A DNA stretch of 64,000 nucleotides from Chloranthus sessilifolius (lineage: Eukaryota; Streptophyta; Magnoliopsida; Chloranthales; Chloranthaceae), in contig CM037589.1 of the NCBI GenBank assembly GCA_021018995.1, positions 62,716,568 through 62,780,567 of the forward strand, given 5' to 3'. The position numbers and the translations under genes are program-made. This document shows positions 10,001 to 43,024 of the stretch, one piece after another. The notes below the pieces were generated by a model, which did not search any database, was not told the DNA's origin, and saw nothing but the letters and a program-made list of their open reading frames with translations. Position 1 is the stretch's first letter. The number at the start of each line of letters is the position of its first letter.

Positions 10001-13000
10001 ATCAAACACACAAAATAAGTATAGTGGAATAAACCCAAAATAAACAGCATGACATCCTCAAACTATATTTTATTAGATAACAACCACCATATTTTTATGG
10101 CTTTAGTAATACTGATATAAAGCATTTGTATAATGCGAAAAATTGATCACCAACACCCATCAAAATCACATAAAAAGATATAAAATATCACTGAGTTCCT
10201 TACTCCTCCCCATTAAAAAAACCCTTCGGACCCCATAAAATTGCAAACCTATTGAAACAATAAGAAGAAATATCAAAATCTTATGGATACCCAAACTCGT
10301 CCAAAGTTATGACTATGAGGCCCCATCGAAACCAAAACATATATAAATTTGGACGGATGTCGATTCAATCCTGCGGCTAGAGCCCATAAATATCTATCGA
10401 CATTGAATTCAACAAAATAAATAAATAAATAAACATCTAAATACATGAAATGAGAAAACTTTTCCACTCCATCAGTAAAAAATAAACTAAGAAATAATAA
10501 TAAATATATAAAACAAAAATCTTACAGACTTAAAGCCCACAATTTGATGCTGAAAGTTAAGACGGCAAGGCTCATCATCACTGTTCGTCGAAGTTGAGTT
10601 TGAGAACCAGAGGCTCAAACTCAATAAAATGCAAAGACCTGAACCAAATGTGGAACGAGATGCTCATTTTTTACCCAGAGTAGACAAATCTCCCTTATTG
10701 GCCGAGCAAGGTCAACATCTACAAGAAGAAGAGGTTAAGCAATAGCCAGAACTTCCTCAACGTGTACAGGTCCCCTCTTCACCAACAAGCTGAAGAATCA
10801 TAATTCAGCTCCACAACTCGACAAATGGAGGCTAGATCAAGGGTCAAAATATCGGAAAACTGATACGTTTCGTCCTGACCTCCAGGACGATACGTATCGG
10901 GTATCGGCCGATACATTGAATTTTTTTTTTTTTTTCATAAAATCCTAAAAAAATTAAGAAAAATAAATTTAATGATTTTCTTTTTTTTTTTTTACTTTTT
11001 TAAAAATATATTTAAAGCTTATTTGATGTATATTTCATAATAGGACGGATTCCTAATTAAAGAATTGCATAATTACAATTAAAAGCTTTCAATTTTTTTC
11101 TTTCTTTTTTATTGTTTAATAAATGAAAATTTTATTAACAGACAACAAAAATATATTAGGTTATAAGTCCACAACAAAGGAGAGATCACTCTTAACATAG
11201 TTGATTCATTATACATGACTAATTTTCATTGTACATGACTAATGATCAAATTTTTATTATACATGACTAATTATCAAAATTAAAAGGTATATTATATAAA
11301 AAAAATTAATTACTTTAGAGCCACATTAAATTTCGTAGTGGTTCTTGGCCCTCGTTATCATCATTATCGTGCGCGAGCTTTCCTTATAATGTTGGCCATA
11401 CTGATATCCATGATCGTGTGTGCCTCCTTGAAACTGAGACATTAGCGGCGAATATGGCTCAGTGTAATAGGTAAATATGGCTCAGTGTAATAGGTAAAGG
11501 TTGGTCCTCCAAAAATTTGACCAACAAAGTCATATGGCCCGAGATAAGTTAGTTGATGCCGATAATATGGGTTACTTGCTGTTAAATCTTCGGTATTTTG
11601 CAAACTAAATCCCTCGAAGCTAGAAGTCATATAACCCACATCATCTTGTGGACCTTATGGTGGTGGTGGAGGTGGTGTTTTGTAAGATTCTGACGCTCCT
11701 CTTCCTTTAATCCCTCCACCTTTAAATGTAGGAGTGTCATAAATTGTTAGCAGGTCCTCATCCCATGCGGCAATACCTCAAGAAGTATAATATCATTCGC
11801 TCTACCACTAGTGCCAGCGTGGATTTCATCGCCTCCATCATCACCCCCACCATCATCATTATCACTACCGAACTGCGTTTCGTCATCAGATCCAACCACT
11901 GAATGACGATTCAATCTTCGTTTCCGCCTCGGTAGTTGGGAAGCTTGCTCATCTGTTGCTCTTTCAGCATATCCAGCTATGCAGTGTCCTCAGTATCCAA
12001 CACTGGCTCTTCTCTCTCTTCGATCCACTAATTTAAAGGGTCATCCTCCATGAATATATAATCCAACTGGATAGGATCAAAATATTTATTATTTGTAAGG
12101 TAAAATATGATAGATGAATTAGTACATGTCTGATGCCTCATCAATTAGATTAAATAAAAATTGTATGAACTAAGACTTCATATAATATCGTACCGCGATT
12201 GACCCTCTATATATTTCTGACCCTTAATCTTATATTGTAGTGGCAATAGACTAACTTTTTCAATCGTTCCATAGTTAGCCTATTCCTTGTCTTCGTGTGA
12301 ATGAGAGAGAAGGTGCTCCAATTTCACTCACAGTTGGACGAGGAACAAGTTTGCGATAAAACTCTCATGGCAACCCGCCTTAATATCGGGCCATCACTTC
12401 CATAATGCATCCACCAATCAGCGGGTTTATCATACTTGATTTGGGATTGCGCCAATGGGGTCCCAAATGACCCATGTCTCTTGCGAAATATATCAATCTA
12501 TATATCAATAACCCACATATCAATAAACAGATCATATGACACCTGCATTATTACTTATAAGGTATTATTACTCACATCTCTTATGGCTTGACCTTGCATT
12601 GCCAACTCAGGGAGCATTCGCTGGATTACATTAAGCAAACCGCTGTACACGTCATCGGCCTCAGTCAACTCAAAGCATCGCGTATACTGGAAGGCCTGAT
12701 TTAAGTAGTGTTCTATACATCAAATATGAACAATCTCATCAATATATAGAAACAATGAATAATATAAAAAATAATAAATAAATAAAAATCACTACATAAG
12801 TAGTTTAGCATGTTATACCTGCGACATGTAAGCAATGGTAGAATTGTGCATCCCACCTCTTGTCGATGATTGCCGAATATCGTTTATATTTTGTCGGGCA
12901 TTTAGTTTTAATAGCCAATTTGGCTTTAGCCATTAACTCATAAACGTACCCCATCGTTGGTTTCTCATCACCATCTATCAACCTTAACATTTGTACCAAC

Positions 13001-16000
13001 AGCGTAGTGACGACGATCTGGTGGTCAACATCTGCCCAAAACTGGGGACTGTAGATCAGGTCGACAACTTTATTGCAAGCAGGTCTCTTTGCTCGTGAGA
13101 GTTCTAACTCATCTTTTCTCCATTCTTCAGAAGAGACCATACTTTTCAGCTCACGCTTATATCTAGCCAAGCTCTGTAGGGCTAAAAATTGTGTCACAAA
13201 TCGTATAATCGCAGGCCGAAGAAGCTCGTTCTTGGTGAAATTTCTCATCAAATTCACCAACTTGTCACTGTTGTATAGGTAGGAAGTAATCGTTCTTCCC
13301 TTCTGAATAGTTGCTTGTGCTTTGCTTCTTTTTTCCAAATCTTCAAGAATGAGGTCCACGCAATGAGCGGCACACGGAGTCCAATACAAGTGATGTCTCT
13401 TGTGTTTTATAGCATCAACTTATATTAGAAATATTATCCCGATATCGCTGTAGCCAAAAAAATTGATCAAACTCTTCTTTGTGGGACTTGTCCATCCATC
13501 GCACATAATTGTGCAACCTCTCTCATCCCATACTTCGTGGAAGCTGTCCACGTAAGTTCCTATCTTTGTGTACTCATCATCTAGTAGGGGTTCGGATACC
13601 TCGTATGCAGAAGGCTTTTTGACTCCTGGACCAGCTTTTGCACTTGTATCAATCATACTTTTAAAGTACGGCGACGCTACAACTTGACTTAGAATGTGAT
13701 TGTATATCACAAACTTTGCAATCGATTTTTCAAGTCTCTTTTCCCATTTTTTCAGTAAAATTATGCTCAATTTATTGCTTTGAGCTTTCTGTCTGATGCA
13801 TGAACGGATCCATGAGACCTATAGTATGACCTGTACTAGACGGCCTGGTGTCCCTCACTGATGCTGACCTACGCAATCTGGCAGTGTCATGAATATACTC
13901 CTCATCATTATCAATAACATGTAGCCTATGATTAGATCGACCACCAGCAGTAGGCATGGATGGACCCCTTAAGCTGGATCGAAACCGATAATCAGCTTCT
14001 TCTTGATCTCGTCGCTGTCGTGCTTCTCTAGCACTCTCCCTCATGACTCTCGCTGTCACAACATCCTCATCCTCATTATCCTCACGTTCAGGTGCAGAAA
14101 ACTCCGGATCTACCCTCCTTATTCTGTCATATATTTCTCTATCACAATCGGCTTCTGCCTTTTTCTTTCCCTTAGCCGCCTGTAAACTGGCTCTGACTTC
14201 TTCTCTTACCTCTCTGGGTACATTGGGGCACCCTTTTGTCTTTCCCTTTACGTGAGGCAAATGCTCCTTCAACCGTCTGATACCTCCTCCCAATAATTTT
14301 TTTTCACAAAGTTTATATTCTATTCGGAGTCTATCACCATCTATTGCTGTGCCGTATTGCCAGGCTGAATTTGATGATTGTACCATATTTATTTCTTTCA
14401 CTTGCATTAATGACCAAACGATTAGACTAAATTAAAACATTTAGATAACACTTGAAAATAATATTTATTTGATATGTATCGTCAGATATGTATCGGGTTT
14501 GGACCTGGACAATATGATACATAGGCATTGTATAATTGTATCGTACCCCCTAAAAAAATTTACTAATTTTTTTTATTACTAATTTTTCTTTAAACTAATT
14601 TTTTTTAAATTTTTAGTGTTACTTTTTTAAACTAAACTTTTTTTATTAGTAATTTTAGTTTTAAAATTATTTTTAATTTTGTGTTACTAATTTTTTTTAA
14701 AAACTAAACTCTTTTTTTTTACTAATTTTGTTTTAAAACTAAATTTTTTTATTTTGTGTTACTAATTTTTAAAAGTAAACTAGTTTTAAATTTGCTTTTA
14801 AAACTATACTTTTTTTAAAAAAAATTAAACTTTTTTTTTGTTTTATGTTACTAATTTTTTGTTACTAATTAGTATTTTTGTGTTACTAATTTTTTTTATT
14901 ACTAATTTTTCTTTAAACTAAATTTTTTAAAAGTTTTAGTGTTACTTTTTTAAACTAAATGTTTTTTATTAGTAATTTTAGTTTTAAATTAATTTTTAAT
15001 TTTGTGTTACTGATTTTTAAAAAAAACTAAACTCTTTTTTTTTTACTAATTTTGTTATAAAACTAAATTTTTTTGTTTTGTGTTACTAATTTTTAGAACT
15101 AAACTAGTTTTAATTTTTTTTTTAAAACTAAACTTTTTTTTTTTAAATTAAACGTTTTTTTTGTTTTATGTTACTAATTTTTTGTTACTAATTAGTAATT
15201 TTTTGTGTTACTAATTTTTCTTTAAACTATTTTTTTAAAAAAATTTAGTGTTACTAATTTCAGGGTTATTTTTTTAAACTAAACTTTTTTTATTAGTAAT
15301 TTTAGTTTTAAAATTATTTTTAATTTTGTGTTACTAATTTTTCTTTAAACTATTTTTTTTTTAATTTTTAGTGTTACTAATTTCAGTGTTATTTTTTTAA
15401 ACTAAACTTTTTTTATTAGTAATTTTAGTTTTAAAATTATTTTTAATTTTATGTTATTAATTTTTTTTTAAAACTAAACTTTTTTTTTTTACTAATTTTG
15501 TTTTAAGAGTAAATTTTTTTTATTTTGTGTTACTAATTTTTAAAACTAAACTAGTTTTAAATTTATTTTTAAAACTAAACTTTTTTTCTTTAAATTAAAC
15601 TCTTTTTTTGTTTTATGTTACTAATTAGTAATTTTTGTGTTACTATTTTTTTTTTAAAGCTAAACTTTGTATTACAAAATTAGTAACAAAAAATTAGTGT
15701 AATTGATGTGTCATGGGTTATGTGTCACATGTGTGACACATCAATTACATGTGTCGCGACACATGTGTCACTGTGTCACATGTGTCGCGACACATCACGC
15801 GTGACACGTGTCACATGTATCGCGACACATCACACGTGATATGTGTCAGATGCATGGGTCAAAAAATTAGTAGTATAAAATTAGTAATACAAAATAAGTA
15901 ATACAAAATAAAAAAGTTTATTTTTAAAATAAAATTAGTAAAAAAAAAGTTTAGTTTAAAAAAAAAAAGATTTTTTGACCCATATCCTCCACCAAAGTCC

Positions 16001-18344
16001 ACTCAATTTTATGTGGCTGAGCTTGAAAGTACTTCATAGGATGAATAAGCATCATCCAAGCAGTATGGTAGATCTAATGATAAAATTAATAATAAATAAA
16101 AATTAATTAAAAAAATAAATAATAAATATAATAGATCTAATGAAAAAATAATTAAAAATACAAGTTAGATGATGAAAAATCATACATTCTCTTAAATATT
16201 CGACGAAAATATAAGTGTGACAATCCGGTGTTTACGATTTCGGTCTCCTATGGCTAAGAAATAAGAAGTATAGTGAATTACAAGTGGAGAAAGAAGAAGT
16301 ATAGTGGTGTAGAAGAAAGGATCCTCAGGTGGTTTGCAAGTAAAGAAGAAGAAGAGATCCTCGGGTGATTTGCAAGTGAAGAAAAAGAAGATATTCTCGG
16401 GTGATTTGCAAGTGAAGAAGAAGAGGATGGTTTACAAATGAAGAATCCCTCTCGGGTGGGTTTTATCCGTTGTCGGCTTGCCGCTAATATCCGTTGCAAA
16501 AAGCAAATGCAATGGATATAAAATTATATCTGTTGCTTTTGCAACGTTTTAATTAATAAAATAATATAAAAAAATTATGCAACGGATATAAAATTATATC
16601 CGTTGCATCTTTTGCGGCTATTGTAACGATTAAAAAAAAAAATTAAAAAAATAGAAAAGGACAAAAAACTAAAGAAAAAAGGAATAAAAGGAGGTGGGGG
16701 ATATTAATTCTGACACTTCAATTATCGATACCACGATAATTTGCCCGTATCGTCCGATAATTTCATTTTTGCAATTAAAAAAAAAAAAAGATTATTAGAT
16801 GATAATTTGAAATTATCGTCTGATAATTTCAAATTATCGTCGTATCGTCCGATACGACGCCCGTATCGGATGATAATTACCTTATTTTTTAGGGGGTACG
16901 ATACATAGGCAATGTATCGTATCGCCCAGGTCCAAAACCGATACGTATCGGGCGATACATATCAGTATCGGACGATTTTTTGACCCATGGGCTAGATGGG
17001 CTTCAAACTCTATCAACAGAAGAAGAATCGCTCCAACTACAAAAATGCCAACAAAAAAATACTAGTATTGAAAAGTCATCAAAAGTCCAAAACCTTATAG
17101 TTTGTCATTATGCCTTTAGCACACATTTATGATTAGTCTAAATTGTCCATGTAGGAATCCGTCACTTCAACATGTCTCAGCCCCAAAAAAGCATGGGTAT
17201 AATTGAATGTGAACCATCTTATTGATGAACTTCAATGTTAGCCAATAAAATGAAAAAGAATGGTTGATAGTAAAATATTGGGTGGTTTAAACGTCCCTAA
17301 AGTATGATTTTTGGGCCTTCTGCACTTCAATCCATGATCTATTACTTGGACGGTATGGATCACCCGTATCTGAAACCATTGATGGTGTAAGATCATTTAA
17401 ACACAATATTGGTATTTAATTGGCAGTTAGGAGAGTCAAATCACTAAAAAAATATTGTAAGAGATTGCAATTGGGCTACACCTAAACCTATTCTAAGAAG
17501 ATACCTACCTTAAATACAATATTACCCCCCATTAATTAAGAACCACTGGAAGATAGTTCCTATAGGGGCAACTATGGATATCCTATATTTAGGACTTCCT
17601 TTTTCAAATGCAACCTTCAAATTGTACAAGATCTTATAACATGATCTCTGAACGTACCATGTACCATCATTATGGTCAATCACTACAGAAACCACTATGG
17701 TTACCGTGCAAATCACTATGATTTCGGTGTAGCACAAGCAACCTCAAGTCAATTTTGTTGTCTCCTATTGTCCTTAGAAAAAATTAAAAAAGACACCTCA
17801 CAAAAATGGGAGATATATAATTTTTAAGGGAAATTTATGACCCCTGTTAGATTCACCTTTTCTGTTAGAGGCCCTATATTTTCACCTTTCACCTAACTGA
17901 CCAGTTCTAAGCCGAGCCAGTTCCAACCGAATCTTATAGGGGCAACTAGTTTAAAAAGTTGATTTCCAACCGAATCTTCAAATACGCCAATGCCAAAAAT
18001 TATTGATTGTGCGAAATCAGATGATGAAGATTGTGTTTCGCTCCAATCTCCCACACAAGGGATTTTGAGGCTATGAAAATACCATCCGACGGTTAGTTTT
18101 TTTATTCCACGTGGCATAGACCCCAAAAACATGGTTGTAAAGTCATGTGGCACACCTCACGTGCAAACGTGACTATAGATCCACGTTTTTGGGATTGGAG
18201 ACATGTGGAATAAAACACTACCCATCCGATGGTATGTTCATGGCCTCAAGATCCCTTCTGTGAAAGATTGGAGCAAAACAAGATCTCCACGATTTGATTT
18301 AAAGCAAGCAATGATTTTTGGCATGAGCGTTTTTAAAGGTACCC

Positions 18345-18392
<48 letters not shown>

Positions 18393-18609
18393 AAGCACAA
18401 GTTAAACATCAAGTTTATTTCAATGGTCTAGAGTTCAGGGCTCAATAAACACACGGGCACACGCGCTCACATATATAGGGTGATGATCCTCTACCACCGA
18501 GTCAAAAAATGACTCAAGTATCCCAGCCATACACTTGTGCGAGTGTATTGTGTGATGATTGAGTGACTCAAGTCATATGCCAATTTCCTATATATATATA
18601 TATATATAT

Positions 18610-18654
<45 letters not shown>

Positions 18655-19896
18655 CAGATGGAACCCTGAACTTCAACAGAGGATAATGCATCATCATACG
18701 GTACAGAACAAAACAAGTGTCTTTCTAAATGTTAAAAGTAATACTCAAAAAATAAAATGACAAAGATTCATAACATTAATGAAAATAAACTTCAAAAAAT
18801 ATAAAACCAGCCAAAATCTAAGAGTACGTAGTATTTACTAAAATGAAGTAACATAGTGAAGAAATTTAAAAAATACTAACAAAATAACAAAAAAATAATT
18901 GATTAAACTGTAACTTACATAGATAAGCAACCCTAGCGTTTGCAGATTCGACTTTATTCACAACACAAAGAATAGGAGCAATCTTGACAAGCGACGATGG
19001 AACAACCTCACTATCAAAGATTGAGTTGCCCAAATTCCCGACCGTCGGGGTCCGCAGTATCCGCCGAGGCGGCGTCTGCTCCGAACCCCTTCTAGAAGAC
19101 ATTATTTCTATTGCTCATTTAAAAAAAAGATAGTTTTTTTACTCTAATTGACAAGTAGCTTTAGAAATCCCTGGTGATATATAAGCAAACAAACAAACAA
19201 ACACATACTGATCACTACAAATTTTAATAAAAGAAGAAAAAAAGAGAGAAAATAAAATGATTACCAGTTCTTAGATAAGCTTAGGACCCTGGATCCATCA
19301 TCTTCGGTATGAAAAAATAAAGATTTTTTACATGGATCAATTGAGAAAATTAATATGGAGTAGATGGAACGACCATTAGAGATGAAAGCTCGGATTCGAA
19401 ATCTATTGCAGAGAAGTGCTTACCAGTTGTAAAAGAAACCCGAGCTGAGAAGAGAGTGTGAGAGAGAGTCACCTACTTGTATAGCTGTATAATCATTGTG
19501 TACTGTGCACATTTAATGGTAGCTAGTGCAGGAAGACTATTATGCAACAATCATTGTCAATATCAATATCTATAGGGGTAGGTACTGCTGTTATGTTCCG
19601 TGCGCATTTAATGCTAACTGAGTGCACTATGATGTAATAATCACTGTCAATCCAACCGTCTTACTTAATCACATTTTTGTCCCTCTCAAAACTATAAATT
19701 CCACTGCAGCAGAAACCAAACAAAAATGAAATCTAATAAGGGCAGTTAGGTGTAGCTAGTTTAAAAAGTTCATTTCCAACGAATGTCTTTCATATTTTTA
19801 AATTTGCCAAAGATTACTTATCTAGCGGAGTGTAAGTAAGAAGGGCTTTATTGTCTGAATTGAAAAAAAAAACGGACCAACTGATAGACTGTCAAT

Positions 19897-19952
<56 letters not shown>

Positions 19953-22157
19953 CAAGGGGTTAGGTGAGCTGGTTAGGTACTTGCTTTCAAATGCAGGAGA
20001 CCTGAGTTCGAATCCCCTCCCTCCCTTGAGGCCACCTTAGGGATTTATTTCCTGTGCTAACCCAAAACAAAAGGTAACTTTGTTTGTCCCCACGTCCCTG
20101 ACCCTTTGTAAACCATTGATTGCTTCGGATCAAATGATGGAGATCGTTTTTCAGCCCGATCTTTCTCATAAGAGATCTTGAGATCATGTCTCAGCTATGT
20201 AGCGGTCATTTTTTGATTGCATGTCTCAGAGATCCCAAAAAAATGACCCTTTGACACACATGATGCTCAAACATAAATTTATGGGCATTTTTTGGGCATA
20301 TTTTATAAAAAGGGGACTGTCTGATAAGTGTGCCATGATCTGAAGATGTTTTTTGTGGAAGATCGGGGTAAAAAATGATATCCATCATTTGATCCGAAGC
20401 ACTTAATGATTTTCAAAGGGTATGACATGTGGGCACTTAGAATGCATGGGCACAAAATGAGGCACATAAAAACAAGAGAAAATGCGATTTATTGTAATCG
20501 ATCATTTGATGAGACTCTTGTTGTTGAATTACTAAATGATAATGATTGAAAATGACAGGTAATTGCTTTGTATATCGTGGGGGAATTGCATACAGATTCA
20601 GTTTTAAGTTGTGAGCATAGGCAAGAGATGCGTCGTTACCTTTATAATCACCAGGTAAGCATATATAATATATAATAAATTGGTTATTGAGTTTTGAAGT
20701 CAATTTCTTTTTTTTCTTTTTTTTTGTTTTTTGTTTTTTCGTTTGAAAGGACAAGTGATATAGCTTCTTGAGTCACAGGCTTTATGTCCCGTGACTCGAG
20801 AGTCATATAAAGATGAAAAATCTATATAGTTGGATTTGTGGAATTTTAGAAGGGAAATTGAGATAATAAAATTGTAGAATGAGGATGGGGGTTGGGGACT
20901 ACATATTGAAGGGGAGAGCATTATGTTTTGTACGGCACTGTGTTACGTGACATTGAGGTTGCTTGGCGAAGAAGAAGAAGAGAGGTTGGAGAAGGCAAGA
21001 AGATGGGTGCTCAACCGTGGAGGGGTCACTTACATATCATCTTGGGGAAAGATGTGGCTTTCTGTAAGTTTTTTTCTTGGTATGATGGGTACACATCACT
21101 CATTTTTTCTTACACTCTTTTTTAATTTTAAATAAATTGAATGGTGAGGGTTTTCCAAAATTGGGAATTAGTAGGTGCTCGGGGTGTATGAATGGTGTGG
21201 TACTAATCCATTGCCCCCAGAGATATGGCTTCTTCCTTACTTTGTACCAATTCATCCAGGTAATTCATAATCTATTTCTTTGATTCTTTCTCTTTTGTGC
21301 TAACAATTTTTAATAATAATAGTAAGCAAAAGAGAGTAAAGTAGTAATTGGGTGCAGGGCGGATGTGGTGCCACTGTCGGATGGTTTACCTTCCAATGTC
21401 ATATTTATATGGGAAGAGGTTTGTTGGATCAATCACCGAATTAGTAGTCTCACTTAGAAGAGAGTTGTACACCCGTCCTTACCATCAAATCAATTGGGAC
21501 CAAGCACGCAATCTATGTGCTCAGGTTAATTTGGACCTTTGCCTTCTTCCTATATCACCCCCCCCCCTCTCTCTCTCTATATATATATATATATAAATAT
21601 ATATATATATTAAAAGAGATTTTTGGGTTTTTTCAGGAAGATCTGTATTATCCACATCCCTTCATACAAGACATCCTTTGGGGAGGTCTTCAAAAAGTTG
21701 TAGAGCCAATTATGAAGCGATGGCCCCTTTCCAAGCTCAGACAAAAGGCTCTAACCACTGTCATCAAACACATTCACTACGAAGACCGCACTACTCACTA
21801 CCTATGCATTGGTCCCGTTAACAAGGCACCTACATACTCTCCTTTTTCTCATCATATCATATCTATTTACTTTATTATATAGGAAATGATCTCTTAACTC
21901 GGCATAAGATATAAACTCATGACTAAGACCTCCTATTGGCGGCATACCATTTCTACTTCTCTTTGAAAAGTCAAAGAGTCATGTGATATAATCCCATGGC
22001 TCGCTCACTGGATTGAGAGGATCATTACCTTATTCGAGTCATTGCAATCTGAGTTATGAGATTATGTTCCATGACTAGCTCCTATTGGCTACAATAACTG
22101 CCTTGACTTTTCAACTCATGGTTTTATGTCCCATAACTCGAGCTAGTAGATCATTTC

Positions 22158-22242
<85 letters not shown>

Positions 22243-25200
22243 CTCTAAATTTCAATTAAATCAATCTCTCACTTGAATCAATTCCAAGAACATATCTACT
22301 TGTTTCTATACCTTTTTGTATTCTCTACATGTAGAATAGTTTTCTTCCAGGTAAGAGTTGTTGTCTATTCCCTGTTTCAGGTCCTAAATATGCTTTGTTG
22401 TTGGGTGGAAGATCCAAGTTCAAAGACATTTCAGTTGCACCTTCCAAGAATCGCAGATTACTTGTGGATTGCTGAAGATGGCATGAAGATGCAGGTTTAT
22501 AAACAATTTTATATGGCAACTATATATGTAGCAACTAGAAAGTACTTGTCATTGTCCAAAATCAAAATGAGTCTTTGAATTCCTACTTCAACTCCACCAA
22601 ATTTTTGTTAAATAAGGTGTGTTTGAAGTGAACTAGGTCCTCAGGGTCTGACCAAATTGAATTGATTTGGCAAGAAAATTTTTGAACAATGATTTTAACG
22701 GCCAGGATTCCTAAATTCACACTTGATAGTATAGATTGGTGGATGACAGGGATATAATGGCAGTCAGTTATGGGATACTGTTTTTGCTGTTCAAGCAATC
22801 ATCTCAACCAACCTTACCGAAGAATATGGTTCGATGCTAAAGAAAGCACATGACTTCATAAAGCAGTCACAGGTTTTCAACTGAAATTAGCTCAAATTTC
22901 TACAAGTGTTCAGTTTCTAACCCATTTTTATGATCTTCAATTTATTTAGCTTCGTATCCTTTGATTTTATCATATTACGTACATACAGTGTTGTTGTTTT
23001 GAAGGTACCAAAAGACAGTTCAAGCAATCTAAGTTTTTGGTATCGTCACATTTCTAAAGGAGCTTGGCCTTTCTCAACCCCAGATAACGGATGGCCTGTT
23101 TCAGATTGCACTAGTGAAGGATTAAAGGTGACTATTTGCAACTTCACTCCTAAATGCCTGTCGTATTAGCCAAAATTTTAGTGACACTCCTATATATATA
23201 TATCCTATCTAATATATTCATATCAGATTAGTATGCAAGTGACCCTATTTGTATCAACATGTATGTTTTTGAAAAAACCCGTGTCATCAACTGTAGTATC
23301 TGGGTGGCAGGTTCAATCTCAGCTTATCTATCAGGAAAAAAAAGAGTGTAGTATCTGGGTGTTGTATGTAAGAGGCACATGAACTCAAGTTCCTGTATAT
23401 ATGACGACCACTTTTTCAACTATTTTGCAGGCAGCACTCCTACTATCAAAAATTCCATCAGAGACCGTTGGAGAGCAAATAGCTTCAGAGCGGTTGTACG
23501 ATGCTGTTAATGTGATCCTTTCCTTTCAGGTCATTAAGTAGAGTGGATTCCATAATAAAATTGTGGGTTCCATAAAATTGTGGATTACAAATTTTATTGG
23601 TATCTAATATAGTTATTTCATCTACAGAATAGCAATGGTGGTTTTGCGACATATGAGCTGACAAGATCATATGCTTGGTTGGAGGTAACATCGTTTGAGG
23701 AATCCTCCTTTTTGGTTTTAAAACAAAAATTATCTGCAATGCCTACATATATTAATGTTTAGTTCATCATCAAGAGCAGTTACCTATTCAGAGAATCCCT
23801 CCATCGTTTTCTTTGGGTTTGAGGGAGCATCCCTATCTACATTTTGATGTGTTATATAGAAGTCCCACCTAACTACAAACTCTTTAGTTTAGATGGTGGG
23901 TTGGGGAAGGGGCATAGTTTCAGCTATATGACTTACCCTCTTGTTTACGTAACCTTGACAATGAGTTTTCATATATAATTTTTTTGAAAATTATGATAAT
24001 AGATATAAAAATCTTTATAACTTTAATATTAAACTTCAATATTTAAGCCATTTGATTTAATATTATTGTAGTTCAGACTAACATCATTTTCTTTTAATCA
24101 ACAATAAATCAAGACAATCTCTAATTTTTTTGAAAATAAATGGATTTGAGATAGTTCTGAAAACGAAAAACAATATACATCAGAGGTGATAAAGAGTATC
24201 TGTTCTTTATATATGTAATAATACATGAGGATAAAAACTGTAATAATACTTATTATAGTTAGATACATTTACCTTATTAGACCTAATATAGTGCAGTTAT
24301 ATAATGTACATAAACTACAAATACTAAAATAGGATATTATATAAGAAGAATGATCTAGTAATTTTAATGCACAAACAAGTTACTTGTGCAATAGAACCTT
24401 TTCCATCAAGGCATAATCAAAGTCATATGTCGGGGCACTAAATTCGAACATTTGATGCCCTTTTAGCAGGTGCCAAGACCAGGTATAAATATTGTCTGGA
24501 CTTGGTCAGAAGGTTCTTACTTGTAAGATATCAATTAAATGCATTCTAGAACTATTAAATCATCATGCAAAATAATATTATTATGTCATTATAGTTATTA
24601 TTTATTATTTTGGGTATAAATTTTTTAGGTTTTATTTACAATTATTTTTATGAATTAAATTTATAATTTATAGAATATATATTTAAAGTATCATATATAT
24701 ATATATATATATATATATGTTTTTATTTTATATTTAAAGTACCATATGTCAATATTTTATTACGTTAGCAAGTATGAATTTATTGTAGTTGAACCCATAT
24801 TATTACGTTAGCAAGTACGAATTTATTGTAGTTGAAACCATGTTATTGATAATGAGAAACAGTGGTTTCTTTGTGCTATGAAATTGGTTTCAAATACATT
24901 ATGAAAATAAATCCAGAACAATTATGATCACAAATAGATACCAGAAAATTTATTTTCAATTAAAATTTATACACCTCAGCTAGATGCTCAAACATTTATA
25001 GTACTATGGACTGTTGGTGAATCCTATAACATGAAATTTGCTCATCTAAGCTCATCTACACAATTTCTTGAGGAATCTAGGACCATTCACTCTCCTGTTA
25101 TGAACATGGATTATCCTTGTTTACCTCCAAATTATTTGCAGGAACTTCCAGCTCTTATTAATTATTTTTTCTGCAGTTGATCAATCCCGCTGAAACTTTT

Positions 25201-25828
25201 GGAGACATCATGATTGATTATCAGTAAGGTTTAAACTTCTCTATTTTATATGTCCGCCTAACTCTAAATTAACTACATCCAGTATGGTAATGTAGGTACG
25301 TTGAATGCACCTCAGCAGCAATTCAAGGTTTAGAAACGTTTAAGCAATTATATCCAGAACATCGGAAGAGAGAAGTAGAAACTTGTATTGCAAAAGCAAT
25401 TACTTTTATCGAAAGAATACAACAACCTGATGGTTCATGGTTTGTCTCTTCTTATTTTTTATTTACTTAATTATTTGTTTATTTTTTAAAATTCTAGCAC
25501 AATGTCAAACAGACGGGAGGTGTCGAGCATGACAAGTATAAATTTTTTTGAAACACCCATATTGTTATATGATGATGTTGATTAATGTAGTACAAAAATG
25601 TAAGATATTAGAAAAAGTATCTGATAAATCGACGAATACTAGGAATACATAATATAAAAATAAGATAAAAAATATATTACAGTTCTTGTTTGAAATCCTT
25701 TATTGACTGGTATCCAACATGTGTCTCACACAGTGACACAACAATTCAAATAGATTCTTTGTATACATAATGAGCAAATAGGAAACTGGGTTGGGAAATC
25801 AAAGGCTTAGAAAAAAAAGATACAAGGT

Positions 25829-25861
<33 letters not shown>

Positions 25862-28800
25862 CCTGGTTAGGATATTAGAACTAAAGTGTGTATTTTCATA
25901 ATTATCTATTTAAGCTTGCTTATCTCAACCCTTCACAAGATGAGAATTATTGATAGGTATGGGTCTTGGGGAGTCTGCTTCACCTATGGCACATGGTTTG
26001 GAATAAAGGGACTAGTAGCTGGTGGAAAAACCTACCAAAGTAGTCCCAACATCCGAAAAGCTTGTGACTTTTTGCTGTCAAAGCAGTTGGCATCTGGGGG
26101 TTGGGGAGAGAGCTATCTATCGAGTACAAAAAAGGTAAATCTATTTCTGCCTTAATGGTCTTTCTCTCTAATTGTTAATGCACAAGAAAAAATTAAGATG
26201 GAGGCTATTATTTATTTGGTAATTCCTCAACAAACTGCACAAAATAAATGATATCTTAAGGCAGGGTTGCTCAAAGAATATGTTGCTCTCTAAATATTAC
26301 CCTTATTCCAAACATGCAATTTCTATTATTGATTGTATTAAGAATTGAACATAAAATGTCATGTCATGAGATACAAGCATCTAACTAATGTACTGACATG
26401 ATCATCTACCCCTGAACATCCATCAGTATACATATATTTTTATTTGAATAGCTAGTCCAACTGCGTGGGATCAAGGTATCAAACTCGGTATTACTATTGG
26501 ACATCAGTCCATCGTTCACCGATACGTATCGACCAATTTTTATTTTTAGTTTTTTGAAAAAAATTAGAAAAAGAGTGATTGTATCTGTCAGTATCAGCCG
26601 ATACTGACCCGTATCGATCTGATACCAATACCACCCCAATACTTGTATCAGGGTACATCGTTCACCGATACCTACCAAGTTTTGATACCATGCGTGGGAT
26701 GCATTGTTTGATGCACAGTATTATAACAAGCTATTGGAAACAGATACGCAGAAATCACCAGTTGCATACAAATTAAACCTGACAAAATAAAATGAATATG
26801 TTCTCATTTTATTCATTAAATTTTTTAACCTATTCTATTTGCTATTGTATATTTGTTTGTAGTAGTACAATGTGGGGGATCTTTTTGGTAAACTTTTCTT
26901 CAATGCAGTTACCTTTAGGAAAGCATTTAAAAAAAGTTGAAGTAAAAGCAGTGGTCCAACATAATTAAGCTTTAATCATCAGTTTGAAGAGGTGAAGGAT
27001 ATGCTTCACTAAAATAAAATTTACAAGTCTCCTCGAGGTCGCAGTTTCAAGCCCAGCTTACCCATAAATTTGTTTTTACGTCATATTAACCACTGAATCA
27101 GATTGAGTGCTACCTAATACTAAAAGCATCAGAAATAAAATATGAGTACAAAAAGAAAAATTGGAATGTACATTGTTTATATGTAGGAATAGGGAAGGAA
27201 TATCTAAGTCAAAACATAACTCTAATAAATAAATTTATTTGTGAGTCAACCTCCATAGTATTCAGACGTGCATTAATCGCACCAAATTCTTCTTGCATAC
27301 CTTTAAGGGCATTGAGTATCTCACTCAAATCCATGGTGATCACAGATTCCTATTAGGGTTCTAATATGGAATGCAATATGGACTCACAAAAGAAAAATAA
27401 TGCAATAAAATAAATATGACAAGCAAAGATGCCCTAACCTAGAAAACCTAGGTTTCTGATACCAAAACTGACGCGGGACGGGAACTCTAAAATGCGTGAA
27501 TAATGATTTTATGAAGATTTGTCGAAATTAAATAAAATTAAATCAAGCTTAATCTCAAAATTAATTGAATACCTTAGGGTCTTAGATATCCAATAGGCAA
27601 ATCACTCTAGATCCGAGGAGGGTCCAGTTCGATGCGCAAGTCCCTTTAGATTCAAGGCAGGATCGGGCCTAGAGGTAGAACTCTAGCTTTTCCAGGCTTG
27701 GGCGTTCGTATTCGATCCAATGTAGATTCATAGTTTCGAACTAGGGTTATAGAATTGGTTTATGGTTTTGCAATAGTCTTATGGTTTGGGATCGATTTAT
27801 GGTTTTATAATAGGCTTATGGTTTTGAATACGAAACAAGTTGATCACGGTTTAAAGCAAAACAGAGATTGATAGATAACAGAGATATTAAAAGATCAAAA
27901 GAAAATAGATATCAAAAGATAACGGTTGGGAATCGCTCCCTTGGCCTCACACTAAACCCATCTCAGGAAGAAGAATATTCAAGCAATAATGCATTCAAAA
28001 TATTCAATAATCTAATTAGAATATGTTTACAAGCCTCCTTATATAGGCAACCACTTAATAATTCGAAATAAAGAGTCCTAATAATAATAAAAGACTGAAA
28101 AAGGCAATTTCCGCAGAGAAACGTAAAAATCTCCGTCGCCCACGGACGTCCGTCACCTACGAACAGTGAGGGTGTCAAATCACGAACGCCCATCACTGTT
28201 CACGGAAGTCCGTTACTAATCACAGACGTCTATCACTATTCATTGTTCACCGTTCAATGACGGTTTTGTGTCTTTGTGCCTCATTTTCTCCCCTGAAGCT
28301 GCACTCAGGCTTCCTTTTTGTTTCTTCCGACGTCGGTAGAAGCGATGCGGTCCAAAACCGATGTCCATATACTCGGCGTCCTCGTCACCGATACTTTCAT
28401 TTTTATTTTTTATTATTTTTATTATTCTTTTATTAAAAAATCCAGTATCTGCTATATCGGATGATATGTATCAATCCAATCTTTGGACTGATACCCGATA
28501 CTGATACCAAGTTTGTACCTTGAATAAATGGTCATGTGATTCATTGTCTAATAATTTTTTGAATAACTACTGATGGATAAGTGGTCCCTTTTCTCACCAC
28601 GACTTATATAACTCCCTCAATTTTATTATGAACAGTGAAATTTATTAGCTTAAGTCAGTGTTAGAATAACGACCAAATCAAGGTGCTTACAATCACAACA
28701 AAAGAGTATAAGAATGAACAGAACAACACACCTCACAATCAAATTGCACAAGAGTTGAAATCCCAACTTGTATTTACAGTTGAATATAGAATTGGGTTCA

Positions 28801-31800
28801 CTAAGTACACGTAAGAAAGTCAACTGAGACAGTTTACAAAGTCCAACTAATCTTGGATATTAGTTGTGATAGTGAGAAAAGATCAACAATTATTTTTATA
28901 GCTACTCCTAATTTAAATGTATATTATGCTATAAATCTTCTGTTGTAACGACCGAGACTTTCATGCATTAATAGACCGTAATTGTTTTGCATAGATTTGT
29001 GATTGTGATTAGTTAAATTGATTTGATGTACTTCATTAGTTATTATGCATGAATATGATGTTTAATTTATTTAATAATGACCCATGATAATTAATTAATG
29101 TAATTGATAGACCTTATAAGCCTATAAATAGATGTTAGTAAATTTTGGTAAGCCATTAGTAATAGTTAAGGGACCTTTAAAATATGTTAGTAAATTAGTT
29201 ATAGGTCCATTAACTAATTAAAGACCCATTAACTAATTAAAGACTCAATAACTAATTAAAGACCCAAGATAAGGCCATTGGGCCTTCACTTAAGACCAAG
29301 AGGGAGTTAGAGATAGAGGAGTGGGACGTGGAGCCCATTATAAAAAAAGGACGTGGGTTATTTCCCTCGCACCTTAAGAAGAAGAAAAAAAAGGAAGAGA
29401 AAGAGAATGAGGAAGGGAAAAAGATTGAAAATAGAAGAGATTGAAGTAAATTTTATATTTGTTAATATCCAGAATCAAGATCAAGATCTTTTTCTTTGTT
29501 TCTTAAATTATACAAAATTTGATAAATCTTCAACATCCTCAATAATCTTCTCAAAACTTTAAGATGCCTTTAAGAAGGCCCTTTTACAAATCTCAAGGTT
29601 TGCAACTTTATCTTTAAGACTTTTTTAAAATAAGGCTTTTTCAATAGCCTTTCAAGATTTTCTTTTCAAGATAGGATAGAGAAGCATCAATAATTTCAAT
29701 ACCCTTGAAGAAGACTTTTGAAAAGGCTTTTTCAAAAATTTCTTTTATGAATTAAGATTTAAGGATTTTTTAAAGAATCTTTTTTAAGGCTTTTTTTTTT
29801 TTTTTAAAGAATCTTTATTTTAAGGCTTTCTTTAAGATTTTTTTTTTGAACACTTTTTTTTTAAAGAATCTTTTTTAAGGTTATTTTTTAAATACCTCTT
29901 TTTTACCAAAGCTTTTCAAGAGGATTATTGAGTAGGCATTTTCAAGATTTATTAAGGTTCTTCAAGAAATAGAGAACACAAATCAAGAAAAACAAGAAAA
30001 TCAAGAAACCATAAGGTATGAAAAATCATAGGATTTTTATCGCTACGAGTAGGTATAACATTAGGATGAGGTTAATTCCTTTTCAAATATTGAAAAAGCA
30101 TGTTTATTTTATTTTATCACCATATGTCTTAATGATTAATTATAGAATCACATGATTTATACCATTGTTCCTTAGCAATTTCACATGTTATTTACTATGC
30201 TTATGTCATGTTACTCTCATATGAAAGTTATGTTAATGTTCATATCACTTAGTTGATTCCGACACATGTGAATTTAATAAATTTGAGACTGATAATTGTG
30301 ACGTACTCAATTTCACACTCTGGATCAATGCGCTCACTTGGAGACATCACACTATATCACATCTCCATGATCTTATATAAATCAATTATTCCATAAAGAT
30401 CCGCATATAAACGCAACGGAAAAATAACAATTAAAAGTGCACGCATAAATTTTTTTTTTTATATCATCATAAGAACAATACTAAATTATGAGATAACAAC
30501 CTATTATACCATATTGTATGCTTACTCCTTAAATTAAATAAAACTGAAATCAAGTATAATCCATCATTAACATAAACTTGTTCATAAAAATAATCTGAAA
30601 TAAACATCTTAAGATCCTTCCAAATGCATGAAGAAAAACCTATAAACTAAACTTCAAATCCTTCTTCGCTCAAATCTGGATTTTCATCAATCATTGACGC
30701 ATCTACTTTATCCTTTCCATGTATAGTTGTACTCCCTGGAATCCCAAAAAATAGGTCAGTTTGCCAAGTAAACTGGTATGGACCAGACATGATGAGGCTA
30801 ATAGAAAAGGTCCATAACTCAAATCATCTCATAAAATCAAACAATAACAGAAATATAACATGTGACATAAAGAATAAGTAAAACAATAGAATGAAACTGA
30901 AACATAGCATTAAATTTAAATAAACATTATGACTTGGGTCTCTACCCTAATTTCATGTGTGGCTATTTTTAATTGTGCATTTAATGCTTATGAATCAACA
31001 TACATAATGGACATGGTTATCTCTTTCTTAATCATTATCCTAATCTTCTCTGATCCTTCGATTAGTATCTACGTTAACCTTCACATAACTTCTCTTCAGT
31101 TAAGTAGTAAGCTTAAAATTAAAGACCTTTTCCATCTCTTCAGTCTTATCATTAATGCATGGATGCATAACTTTTATTACTTGTCATTTTTATTCATGCT
31201 AATTCCTCTAACATAAGCCCATAAGAATTCTATCACAATCATAGAAATATTTTGTTTTCATGTGTCATGTCGTAACGTATCTTTTCACTTTTATGAATGT
31301 CATGAATGTACATGCATAGAAAAACTGGAAATCAATCGATCATGCAATAGCTTTTTCACTTGTTTAGGCTTAACACATCATAAATATGTAATCTCTATCG
31401 ATTTCTACTTGTTTCATGTTTTGTAAATCAAACATCCTAGCTTGCATGGATTCTAAGCAATAAAATAATGATGAACATAAATAAACATTTAAGCATGATT
31501 AAACATAAACAATATTTGAATAGAAATTTATTGCTTGCATCCTAGACAAATTTTGAAATTCCTTACAAATTCTGGATTTTGGACAAATTCTGGATTTTGG
31601 ACAGATTCTGGATTCCAAACAGATTCTGGATTCTGAACTGATTCTGGATTCTAAACTGATTTTGGATTCTAGACCTATTCTGGATTCTGAACAAATTCTG
31701 GATTCTGCACAGAATTTCGTGATCAATCACGAAACCTCGTGTATCATCGAAACCCCGCGATTAAGCATAAAAATTTAACAATCTAATATGGAGAATGTTC

Positions 31801-34800
31801 ATTAAATGAAATAAACCCTAATTCCTATTTTATTTTTGTATTATCTACGTTTCCGATTAATCTCAACATGATTTCTCCATACCTCTAGTCTTCGCGTAAA
31901 AATTGACGTAATTCCTCTCCTTGATTCAATCCAAAGCTCTAATCCGAAATTCGATTGCGTCGTAATCTCCTCTCATGTTCTTCTTGAGCCTTCAAACCGA
32001 AAACTCTAGGGTTCCTCTTCTAATTCTCCTTCTCTAGAATTTTCTCTCTCTCTCTCTCTCTCTAAGGTTATTAGGTAATAAGAGTTGCATAAAATTCTAT
32101 AATTTAATCTCTATATTTATAATACTTTATGATTTCCTATTTTATTTTAAATTCTACTTAGAATGCTTTAAGGTTTCCTATTTAATATCTAACTCTATTT
32201 AGAATACTTTAAAGTTTCCTATTTAATGTTTTAAGGTTTCCTATTTAATATCAAATTCTATTTAGAGTACTTTAAAGTTTCCTATTTAAGGTCTAACTCT
32301 ATTTAAAATTTCCTACATGGGTCTTAAGTGATTCTATGAGCCTTTAATTACTTAATGGGCTTTTAATTAGTTATTGAGTCTTTAATTACTTAATGGGTCT
32401 TTAGTTAATTTACTAACACATTTTAAAAGTCCATTAAACATTAATAAACGCTCCCTAATTATTACCAACACATATTTAAGGGCTTTTAGGGTATGTTAAT
32501 TAGATTAATTAATTATCATGAGTCATTATAAAATAAAGTACGCATTACATTCATGTGTAACAATTAATCACATCCATCAAATTAATCAAACTACTCATAA
32601 TTACAAATCTAGCAAATAATTAAGGGCTAAATAACGAAAAATCTCAGTCGTTACAATAATAGACCGTGCTATGGACTTATAAAGTGAAATATTGCATGAC
32701 GTTTTTACCAAGATTTTTGCATCATATTTATTGTACTTCTCATAAGCATATGAAAGTGGTAAGATTCACGATTCCCACAAGACTAAACCATTATATCATT
32801 AATGAATTAGACATTATGAATGTTAAAAGTAAATTTGCATCTACTATTTTAAAGTGAATGATATGATACGATGAAAAGCATGACTTAATGAATATGTAAA
32901 ACATAAGAGCATTAGTAAATATGATAAGAGATTACCATTCCATTTCGTAACCAACTTGGATCTAATGGGCAAGTAATCTAAGATATGAGATGGTGATTAT
33001 GTGTGTCTAAGAAGAGAAAACCATGTAAAAGCCTTGTACCCAATTGATGTATGATGTGAAGATTGGGACGACGGACCAAAGATGAAGAATGATTATGATG
33101 AATGAGATTCATATTGCATTGCATTTAACATTAATAAAGAAAATTACCACACGAAAAATTAGGAAGAGACATGAACAAGTCACATGTTATGTATCAATGC
33201 TTATTCTTAGTTATTGTTTTGTATTACTCATATACATGTCATGATCTCATTGCTTTTGTTTCACATTGTTTATCATTGCACTATTTACCATCATGTGTTT
33301 GTATAAGGCTTGCATACGGTTTTCTTGTATTAGCAATCCTATGACTAGCCCATAAGGAGTTCTTTTAGACTCACTTCTTCATTGTTTACAATGGGATGAC
33401 CAGGAGATGAGTTGATCACATGATACAAGGATACTGATGTAGAGAGCCATGAACCAAATCAGAATTTGAACGAAGATGGTTTCGAGCATTAAGAGTTTAT
33501 TTTTCTAAGAGTTAGACCTTTATTTTAGATTTTAATTGGAGCATTATTTGAGATTGTTGAGACTTTTTTAGTTGAGTTAGTTTAGATTATTGATTATATT
33601 ATTTATGAGTAGTTAATTGATTAATTTTAATTTAATTCAATTTTTTTAATAGCTCATATTGCTTATGAATGAATGACAATTTATTTTATTGTTTACATTC
33701 CATTGTGCTATAGTTCGGATCATTTTTTAACTATTATATTTAATCTTTTGTCGCTAGTTATGTATGTTACGTAGTGCGGTGTCTCCAAATAAGCACATAG
33801 TTCCGGTGTGTGACTTTGGGGACATCACATCCATATATTGCTTATTTTTTTATAATATTTTTTTGTAGTATATCCTTCGAATGGATCTACATTTCCACAA
33901 AATCTCTTTCAAATTGGAGCATGGCAAATGAAATTACTTATGTTCTTCTTTTAATATTGCTCATTTCTCATACGCTAACGCTTTTGGCATTTTAAACATA
34001 TTTTAACAGGTATATACAAATCTAGAGGCAAACCAATCGCATTTAGTAAACACAGGATGGGCTATGTTGGCTCTTATCGCTGCTGGACAGGTTTGAGGAC
34101 TACATAATATATTTTGTGCAAATAGATGGGATAAGCATATGATGATATATTTTCTGCTATATTAACTATTATGCTAATTGAAAAAAGTTTACCTACCTCT
34201 GCATTATTAATTATCTCATTTTGAATCTTCTCTACTAAATCGATGTACTACTATATACTTTTCAAGTAATGTATGTTTACATATAACGTTGCATATGCTT
34301 AGGCATATAGTGATGCAGGACAAGGACCCTAAACTACGTGAATGCCATGATTTAATTAATTGCCGAAATTAAACTAAATAATTAAACAATAAACCATGAG
34401 ATTAATGCGAATACCTTAGGGTTTCGTAGTTTTCCATTGGAAGATCGCGCTTGATTCGAGTAGGGTCCGGTCCATGCACTAGATCCATTAGATTCGCGGT
34501 GTAGATCGGTTATAGAGGTAGAACTTCAGCGTTCTAGAATAGGGCACCGCTCGTGTGTCAATGATGGAATCACGAGTCCTCTAAGGGGTTCTGATTCGAT
34601 TGGTTTAATGGCATGAATGAAATCCGGGCTTGAATCGGATCGATTCGGGGATTTAGATGGGATCTAGGATTTATAAACTTCAGGGTATTTAAAGGTTGGA
34701 TGGCTGGGTTCATGATTTATGAGATGGATTTGAATCAATGGTTCCGATGGAGGCTAGGTTTATGATTTTGGGGATTTTGAGAAAAAAGGTACCGACTGGA

Positions 34801-37800
34801 TTTATGTCTATGAGATCAAAATAAAGAAGAGAAAGAAAATAAAAATTGAAGAAATAGGTAGAAGATAGACTTTGGGCTTCACACCCTTGGCTTCACACCA
34901 AACCCTTCTCGAGAAGCGAAGAAGAATCACTCTTTAAAAAAAGAATCACTTTTCAACAATGGCTCATCTCAAGCACACAAGTAATAGCTTTCATTCATAA
35001 TCAATCATTATCATTATAATGTTTATTTAGAGACCTTATATAGGAAGCCCCATAAAAGAAAATAAAACTCTAAAACAAACTAAACAAAACGTAAATTCGA
35101 ATTTTGGACATAGCACAGTGACGCGGGACAACGACCCTAAAATGTGTGAATATGATTTTAATGCAGATTTTGCCGAAATTAAATAAATTAACTCAAGTTT
35201 AATCGCAAAATTATCTTTAATACCTTAGGGTTTTGAGAATTGTGATGGGTAGATCACACGAAATCCGGATAGGGTCCAGTCCGATGCGCAAGTACGTTTA
35301 GAGTTGAGGCGAGATCGGCCTAGAGATAGGACTCTAGCTTTTCCAGGCTTAGGCGCTCGTCTTCAGTCTGATGTAGTTTCATTGATTCTAAATAGGGTGG
35401 GGAAAAGGATTTACGGTTTGTAAAAGGCTTATAGTTTTCGGATTGGTTTACGGTTTGGAAAAGGGTATTGGCTTTGTTTGATCTATGGATTCAAAAGGTT
35501 TAGGTTTTGGGATCGAAAGGAAACAATTAGACTATGGTGTAGGGGAAGCAAACACAGATTGAGAGATAACAAATATAATAGATCACAACAAATTAAAGAC
35601 AAAGATAAAAAAAGATATATGGGAATCACTCCCTTGGTCTCACACCAAACCCATCTCAGGCAGAGAATACTCAAGCATAAAAACATTCAAATATTCAATC
35701 AACTAATTACATTGTTAAGCTTAAGGACCTTATATAGGAGGTCTTACAATAAAAGAAAACCCTAAAACGAATATTAAATAAAAGCCAAATAAACCCCTAA
35801 ACTAAAGTTCGAAATTAGAAGTTTAAAACAACTAAAACACTTCTGCGCAATTTCGATCGATCGAAATACATTTATATTAAAATATCGCTGTCGACATTCG
35901 ATCAATCGAATTTAAATTTCGATCGATCAAAATATCACTCAAGAACTTAGTATTTTTGTCGACCTAATTCGATCGATCGAATTTGCTAGGGGACTCGAAA
36001 TGTGGAACTCCTCGCAACGAACCCAAACAATCTCGATATCTAGTAATGCGTGAATATCATCTCGATCGATTATATCGAAGCGCACACTGTAAACCGCTCC
36101 TCGACGTACCAAATAACCCGGCTCACCAACTCACTCTACCAAATAATTTTGAAGCTTCTCATCAACTCTCCCGGGCCCGAAAGTCTTCATCACCGATGAA
36201 ATATGATTACGATATCGGTCGGAAATATCGCAACTTAAGCGACGAACTTTCTCATGATTGGCCCATCCATGCACTCTCGATAGTTGACTCATCAACCCTC
36301 CGCATCTCATAAATAAGAAACTCTTTGTCGCAGGTGAATGCCACAATACTATCTAAAATTCTCTCAATTACCTCATTTCTCTGCCTGCTTGGGGAGGGAA
36401 GGTATTGGCTGCAAAGTTGGGATGGGGTTGTAAATATGGGTTGTTTGGAACGGGATACAAAGAGGTGGGGTTGAGCTCAAAGATGGAACTAGGTCCTCCA
36501 CATTGAACATTGAACTAATCCTTGTATCTGGAGGAAGCTGAAGAATGTACGCATTAGGACCACTCCTTGCCACAATTCCAAAAGGTCCAGCGCCGTGGGC
36601 CTGGAGCTCCCTTACGACTCCCGATGGGAATCGTTTAGGTCCAATCCGAACCATTGCGTGATCATTCAATTGAAATTTCATAAAAGCCTTAGGTAACTGC
36701 ATCGATATTTTGAGAGTTTCATTGCATAAATTAATTTTAAGCTTAATTTCAGCATGCAATGCAAAATGAGACTCAAAAGTTGACTTACAATAAGACTCAG
36801 AATGTATAGCGGTATGCAAATCGAGACTATGATGTGTACTTGTATCTATGGACTCGATACTCTGATGTGCATGCGACGCTAACGACCCACATGTAACCGG
36901 CTTAGGTACAACCGACTCTGTGGGCACTATCGGCTCATGTGTGATCGAATCAAAGGACACCAATGGCTCATGTAAGCTTGGTTCAACCAACTTCAAAGAT
37001 TCAAGTGCACACGATTCTACCACCGATAAGGACTCATGCACAATTGGCTCTACGGACACTAACAAATCGTGCGTAGGTGACTCGGTCGAATCGTGCGTGG
37101 GTGACTCAGTTGACTCATGTGTGGGCGACCAAACATCACTATTCACAAGGGAAATAGGGGTCTCTTTAACGCAAACTAGACTCTCATCAGCTTCTTCCAT
37201 CTCCTCTTCACTCATCACGGTTCTATGGTCATACACTTCCTCTTCTACTTTCATATTTTCCGGCTCCTTAGAGCTTTCACTTTTAGCCATTAAATTCGGA
37301 GTGGGAAGTTTTATGGAGCATTGGTAAGCAATGTGTCCAAATCTTTGACACTTAAGACAATCAGGACACTTGTTTGTCTTGGTTCTCAAACTCCGTAGAA
37401 GGTGATGGTGTGTCAAAGGAACATACTTTTCAATAAGTATCACCTTCATATTCTCCCATGTGGAGATGGGTTTAATCCTACGAAAATTGATACTTAGTTC
37501 TATATGAATCCAAATTTTTTTGGTATTACCCGTAAACTTTGTGGTTATTAGCCTAATTTTGTACTCATCTGGTACGCCATACCAATCAAAGCACTCCTCT
37601 ACACTAGACAACCACGCCACGAAGGTTCTAGGGTCCATCGTACCCTCAAAATCTGAGACCTCATTCCGAATAGAGTTTAGAAACTTCTCGGCAGGGTCGT
37701 ACTCTGGTTCCTGATGACGAGGATAACCCTGAACTCTAATCTCATCACGACTTTTGGGGCTTTGCCAAGAATGTGGAGTGTAGTGGTTCCCTCATTTGGC

Positions 37801-42956: not shown

Positions 42957-43024
<68 letters not shown>

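Follow-up and report, generated by a model that had tools for sequence, protein, structure and literature searches.

A predicted lanosterol synthase gene in the non-eudicot flowering plant Chloranthus sessilifolius

Cycloartenol synthases (CAS) carry the active-site triad Tyr, His, Ile (Y,H,I), and the combination Tyr, Asn, Val (Y,N,V) is known from the lanosterol synthases (LAS) of Arabidopsis and Lotus and from an enzyme of Saprolegnia that forms lanosterol as its single product (PMC5101207, in part). An oxidosqualene cyclase (OSC) gene of Chloranthus sessilifolius has the second combination, which raises the question of whether this non-eudicot keeps a working lanosterol synthase beside its cycloartenol synthase and, if so, from which lineage that enzyme descends. 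The window analyzed here is a stretch of 64,000 nucleotides, C6:62716568-62780567, of an assembly with 2,168,743,587 bases in 32 contigs. Judged from sequence comparison, the gene within it probably encodes a working plant lanosterol synthase, a reading to which a probability of roughly 0.7 is assigned.

The gene and its surroundings

The cyclase gene, a predicted lanosterol synthase gene, occupies 6810..44662 of the window on the + strand, introns included. Its 18 exons give a coding sequence of 2322 nt including the stop codon, with no internal stops and no frameshifts, and a protein of 773 residues, the length proposed in the initial annotation, which had also placed exons 9 and 10 exactly where they are found. 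The exons were located by translated searches guided by a provisional Arabidopsis CAS1 sequence, the splice sites were picked by eye, and the exons were then translated. The protein aligns with PDB entry 8j5z over residues 1-764 (E 7.3e-288), also matches human lanosterol synthase, scores 774.6 bits against TIGR01787 (cut-off 322.7), and contains both SQHop domains above their cut-offs (PF13249, 148.6 bits; PF13243, 197.1 bits).

Exons 1 (6810..7010) and 2 (7151..7366) are separated from exon 3 (20559..20654) by the first of three long introns, 13.2 kb in length, which contains a DUF659-type transposon frame. Exons 4 (20878..21063) and 5 (21175..21259) lead to exon 6 (21358..21524), with its MWCHCR motif, and to exon 7 (21637..21825), which is followed by a GC donor at 21826-21827. 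Exon 8 (22381..22494) precedes the two exons that hold the triad, exon 9 (22750..22872) and exon 10 (23005..23127), and these are followed by exons 11 (23431..23529), 12 (23628..23684), 13 (25177..25223), 14 (25296..25439), and 15 (25957..26134). The other long introns, of 7.9 and 10.3 kb, lie before and after exon 16 (34010..34090), and the gene ends with exon 17 (44354..44437) and exon 18 (44531..44662), the latter including the stop codon. Exon 2 also contains a (GAA)n microsatellite at about 7202-7243 that encodes 14 consecutive Glu residues (residues 85-98) in the N-terminal linker, and the length of this run could differ among individuals.

Nine other frames, out of 42 frames of at least 100 aa in the window, were scanned against Pfam; two had no match, and the remaining seven hit transposon families or DUF659, the hit to DUF659 falling just under its cut-off. 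Frames of the transposon type sit in introns 2 and 16 and on both flanks. Related repeats, about 66-90% alike, occupy 27469-28018, 34311-41866, 45020-51748, and 60447-63708, which places them in introns 15 and 16 and in the sequence downstream of the cyclase. Some contain frames that match gypsy-type chromodomain, SH3, and reverse transcriptase models. At default thresholds the window gave no tRNA and no Rfam RNA, and a search of viral contigs gave no relatives. A biosynthetic gene cluster in the window is not supported, the nine scanned frames being transposon-type or unmatched.

Active site and predicted product

In an alignment of 20 sequences, including the window protein, human lanosterol synthase (1w6k), the plant cyclase 8j5z, provisional reference sequences of Arabidopsis CAS1 and LAS1, and 15 cyclases from bacteria, residues Tyr420, Asn487, and Val491 of the window protein stand in the columns of CAS1 Tyr410, His477, and Ile481. 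The initial annotation had claimed that Tyr is kept and that Asn and Val occupy the other two columns, and it was exact on all three. The codons, counted by hand, lie at 22753-22755 in exon 9 (Tyr420) and at 23086-23088 and 23098-23100 in exon 10 (Asn487 and Val491). The register is fixed independently of this CAS1 reference, because the CAS1 segments KMQGYNGSQ and TADHGWPISDC are published together with the numbers of Tyr410, His477, and Ile481 (PMC7060231, in part); in the window gene the first motif is joined across an intron as MQ|GYNGSQ. The window protein thus has the Y,N,V triad of plant lanosterol synthases, with Asn and Val where CAS has His and Ile, and identity as a CAS was rejected on the triad. 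That natural plant lanosterol synthases carry the Asn/Val pair, another premise of that annotation, is borne out by the Arabidopsis and Lotus enzymes named above.

The triad is also found outside plants. The 15 bacterial cyclases were drawn from 80 fetched loci, the others matching at 28% identity or less, and their triads are Y/H/I in nine, Y/H/V in two, Y/N/V in two, Y/Q/V in one, and E/Q/V in one; Y,N,V has therefore arisen more than once. The two bacterial Y,N,V sequences come from one Methylococcaceae genome and one unclassified source. The available portion of PMC5101207 names the triad for oomycetes and plants only, and its section 15 once gives the CAS motif as Y,H,V, contrary to its own introduction.

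Features of protosteryl-type cyclases accompany the triad. The MWCHCR motif contains His267 (human His232), exon 12 encodes Tyr542 (human Tyr503) in a FATYE segment, and GYNGSQ includes Asn421 and lacks the one-residue deletion of amyrin-type enzymes. The corresponding positions in 8j5z, classed by its motifs as a cyclase of the dammarenyl kind, are Tyr, Trp, and a gap. An amyrin- or lupeol-type cyclase was rejected, since the window protein has MWCHCR and QGYNGSQ rather than the MWCYCR-type Tyr and the shortened QSFGSQ, and since it falls outside the dammarenyl group in the best trees. The catalytic acid Asp493 (23104-23106), Cys494, and Cys572 (exon 14) are in register with human Asp455, Cys456, and Cys533; Phe482, Trp426, Trp620, and Phe736 are also kept, and all catalytic residues checked are present. 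The acid motif reads DCTSE, with Ser496 encoded at 23113-23115, in place of the usual DCTAE. The initial annotation mentions neither this serine nor the GC donor of intron 7.

The genome contains a separate CAS-type gene at C3:7.74-7.83 Mb, rebuilt from 18 exons as an intact gene for 760 aa with the motifs GYNGSQ and DHGWPISDCTAE, that is, Y/H/I. Over 43 positions in or near the human active site, a provisional list based on the structure literature, the window protein and the C3 CAS are identical at 40. The three differences are Val for Ile (human position 453), Ser for Ala (458), and Met for Val (525); the His-to-Asn change falls outside the list and was seen in the alignments. In the human lanosterol synthase these three residues are Val, Ala, and Met, so that Val491 and Met564 of the window protein match it, whereas it has Thr381 and a Cys where the window protein has Tyr and Asn (50% identity overall).

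From established knowledge of the family, we infer the following product and reaction course. Asp493, held by Cys494 and Cys572, would protonate the epoxide of 2,3-oxidosqualene in a chair-boat-chair fold, closure of the chain would give the protosteryl cation, and hydride and methyl shifts would then lead to a C8/C9 cation. In CAS, the His and Ile beside the acid motif would direct the final proton loss to C19, forming the cyclopropane, whereas Asn487 and Val491, set in an otherwise nearly CAS-like pocket, would let the proton be lost at C8/C9 to yield lanosterol. According to Lodeiro (2005), two mutations turn CAS1 into an accurate lanosterol synthase; these are reportedly His-to-Asn and Ile-to-Val.

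Ser496 and Met564, both of which differ from the in-genome CAS, or other residues outside the triad might instead steer the enzyme mainly to another protosteryl-type product or to a mixture of lanosterol with parkeol or cycloartenol. Such an outcome seems distinctly unlikely, given that Met564 is the human residue (Met525), that Ser occupies the 496 position in six of the 15 bacterial cyclases, and that the two mutations reportedly suffice in CAS1. A mixture would nevertheless be in keeping with an assay of a lanosterol-making cyclase from Aristolochiaceae, in which the cycloartenol background peak also rose (PMC11951148, in part). Lanosterol remains the predicted main product of the window enzyme.

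Relatives in the genome and condition of the gene

A search of the genome with the window protein gave, among the matches listed, 63 exon matches in eight places (58 scored of 77 candidates); stretches between matches were fetched in part, and missing exons of a copy are to be read as not seen rather than absent. The C3 CAS is 73.1% identical to the window protein, 77.4% to the provisional Arabidopsis CAS reference, and 79.6% to that of pea. It is closer to the Arabidopsis and pea enzymes than to the window protein, and the window gene is therefore not a recent copy of it. The C3 gene extends over about 87 kb, and its exon 3 ends in a GC donor (CAG|gcaagg).

On C5, exons 1-4 and 7 of one partial CAS-type copy were seen at 111.61-111.65 Mb, and exon 7, part of exon 9, and exons 10 and 13-15 of another at 109.95-110.01 Mb. 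The two are 1.6 Mb apart and, where fully aligned, 94-99% identical to the C3 exons; since exon 7 occurs in both, they are not simply the halves of a single gene. Another CAS-type copy, at C11:115.69-115.72 Mb (exons 8-18 seen), looks degenerate from its alignment gaps in exons 8, 10, and 17 and from GYNGRQ in place of GYNGSQ. Copies resembling the window gene are found on C5 at about 10.07-10.08 Mb and at 16.02 Mb; both have stops inside exons and are pseudogenes, both have Ser at the Asn487 position, and a further fragment lies at C5:10.09 Mb. Over 5.4 kb the two pseudogenes share 97% identity, which points to recent duplication of a dead copy; their identity to the window gene is 89-90% over the best 1.3-1.4 kb.

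No dammarenyl-type cyclase was found in the genome with the 8j5z query, whose 46 matches (all 55 of 55 candidates scored) fall at the places already known, with 37-74% identity. Among 89 scored of 387 candidates for CYP716-like genes, the two nearest to a provisional CYP716A12 sequence have about 53% and 46% identity over three pieces each, and no close CYP716A was found among these scored matches. Judged by this gene content, the host is very likely a magnoliid or some other flowering plant belonging to neither the eudicots nor the monocots. A psbA search of the genome found no plastid contig; its 41 plastid-like matches were scattered and for the most part broken.

The pseudogenes allow the history of the window gene to be compared with that of its decayed relatives. 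Substitutions were assigned to branches with the C3 gene as outgroup over the alignable codons of exons 7-15, setting aside 14 codons gapped in a pseudogene and omitting positions at which the pseudogenes disagree with each other or neither side agrees with C3. Since the split, 11 synonymous and 6 non-synonymous changes have accumulated on the window branch, compared with 12 and 26 on that of the pseudogenes. Tested against the share of synonymous changes expected under neutrality (0.245), p is 0.0005 for the window branch and 0.34 for the pseudogenes, and a Fisher test between the two branches gives p 0.037. These numbers are small, and the constraint on the window branch points to a working gene; the window copy looks selected while related copies decayed. 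A pseudogene reading of the window gene was rejected on its lesion-free coding sequence and constrained substitutions.

Splicing raises one concern. Sixteen of the 17 introns are GT-AG and intron 7 is GC-AG, with the donor AAG|GCACCT where both pseudogenes have AAG|GTACCT and exon 7 of three CAS-type copies (C3 and the two on C5) is followed by GTAATC after AAG. This donor matches 6 of 9 consensus positions, against 5 to 8 for the other 16, and downstream of exon 7 the window sequence has no alternative GT ahead of the next in-frame stop. The gene might therefore be losing its function, most transcripts being mis-spliced at the altered donor and little enzyme being made; the close copies on C5 are dead already. 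Such a loss is nonetheless distinctly unlikely, as the 2322 nt hold no further lesion, the window branch shows constraint, and about 1% of the introns used in plants are GC-AG. Since the C3 CAS also has a GC donor, the change at intron 7 is a warning rather than proof of loss, and a working gene is the preferred reading.

Placement among plant cyclases and the role of lanosterol

Seven plant rows of the trees are provisional sequences, the single LAS reference (AtLAS1) among them, and the trees are therefore leads rather than proof. In plant-only trees the window protein pairs with this AtLAS1 row at support 91/90, or 86/85 without cucurbitadienol synthase, and the C3 CAS groups with other CAS. 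The pairing is seen at 87/86 with a provisional rice CAS row added, and still at 83/84 once the Glu run and the two diagnostic columns are masked; none of the four values reaches the tree program's star. Adding bacterial and human outgroups leaves the base of the plant group unresolved, as does the use of fetched rows only, and the best tree with outgroups and the C3 gene puts the window protein with the CAS group at 40/21. One very long bacterial row stood in the first outgroup tree and was dropped afterwards along with two other rows. Support for the pairing with LAS1 is thus moderate and vanishes with bacterial and human outgroups.

The initial annotation had held that a place inside the cycloartenol or amyrin synthases would refute a lanosterol synthase. 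No best tree nests the window protein there, although AU tests keep a placement sister to or within CAS (p 0.18-0.44). The window protein lies outside the dammarenyl group of 8j5z, LUP1, and BAS in all six tree runs with those rows, and a placement beside these rows is not rejected by AU tests (p 0.163 with outgroups; 0.065 and 0.107 in plant-only sets). Where three CAS rows agree and LAS1 departs from them, the window protein has the CAS letter 60 times, the LAS1 letter 22 times, and another letter 23 times; among the 22 are Gln568, Gly579, Ser644, and Leu733, all absent from the three dammarenyl rows.

The triad could also have arisen a second time, as has been suggested for monocot genes, in an old CAS duplicate of this lineage outside the eudicot LAS clade, and such an enzyme could still make lanosterol. 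The AU tests that do not reject a place beside CAS (p 0.444 and 0.408) are consistent with this history, as are the outgroup tree just mentioned and an overall identity of 71-73% to CAS but 67% to the LAS1 reference. Y,N,V recurs, moreover, in two of the 15 bacterial cyclases, in oomycetes, and in predicted, functionally uncharacterized genes of monocots that fall among the CAS sequences (PMC5101207, in part). The 22 LAS1-letter sites argue against a second origin, as does the cost of pairing the window protein with the genome's own CAS, which amounts to 9.2, 10.2, 14.3, 10.4, and 10.8 lnL units in the outgroup set, the two plant-only sets, the plant set with rice CAS, and the set with masked columns, respectively. 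The AU values, in the same order, are 0.10, 0.145, 0.020, 0.14, and 0.146, and a recent duplicate of the genome's own CAS, 9 to 14 lnL units worse, is accordingly rejected at 0.05 in one row set only. On balance an independent origin of the triad is unlikely.

Plant lanosterol synthases form OSC group F, with Arabidopsis LAS1 (At3g45130), Lotus japonicus LAS, and Euphorbia lathyris LAS1 as examples. They share with the window protein the Y,N,V triad (as described for the Arabidopsis and Lotus enzymes; PMC5101207, in part), the deprotonation-site His and Tyr, a full-length two-domain cyclase, and a separate CAS gene alongside, and differ in having DCTAE where the window protein has DCTSE. Such genes are already known, and interest lies mainly in the non-eudicot host. 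The initial annotation called them scattered, which is a dated view; PMC4208727, in the part available, has them generally present in plant cyclase repertoires. Lanosterol formation outside the eudicots is also in print, since expression of OSC1 from the magnoliid family Aristolochiaceae in N. benthamiana produced a new peak of lanosterol (PMC11951148, in part), and no first report is therefore claimed; that enzyme resembles the predicted window enzyme in its product and in its non-eudicot origin.

Group F has been called specific to eudicots in a study that dates the CAS/LAS-like duplication, citing an earlier paper, to more than 140 million years ago, finds a group J (amyrin-type) cyclase in all eudicot genomes except Kalanchoe and Brassica, and reports group F genes to be enriched in predicted gene clusters without a characterized pathway (PMC12858397, in part). 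Because eudicot amyrin synthases are thought to share an ancestor with the LAS lineage (PMC12858397 and PMC5303825, both in part), a gene of this kind in a non-eudicot bears on the timing of LAS origin.

As to function, silencing of LAS1 in N. benthamiana left plants with the appearance of controls and no major sterol change (PMC4208727, in part), and LAS loss-of-function Arabidopsis grows normally (PMC6423090, in part). The Y/H/I enzyme encoded on C3 would presumably supply the bulk sterols of C. sessilifolius, and lanosterol from the window enzyme would feed a minor sterol or specialized route, which, reasoning from the family, is its most likely role.

The odds are about even that the LAS lineage predates the eudicots and that its original sterol-making state persists here, in a flowering plant outside the eudicots that either lost the amyrin-type cyclases or never evolved them, eudicots having derived theirs from the ancestor shared with LAS. 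If so, this genome would present the predicted ancestral set, namely one intact CAS, one selected LAS, decayed copies of both, and no dammarenyl type, and the description of group F as specific to eudicots would need correcting. A selected copy amid decayed relatives, in a genome with apparently no amyrin-type cyclase, offers a simple background for asking what lanosterol does, and makes the gene relevant to the reason for which a second enzyme of sterol entry is retained beside CAS in flowering plants.
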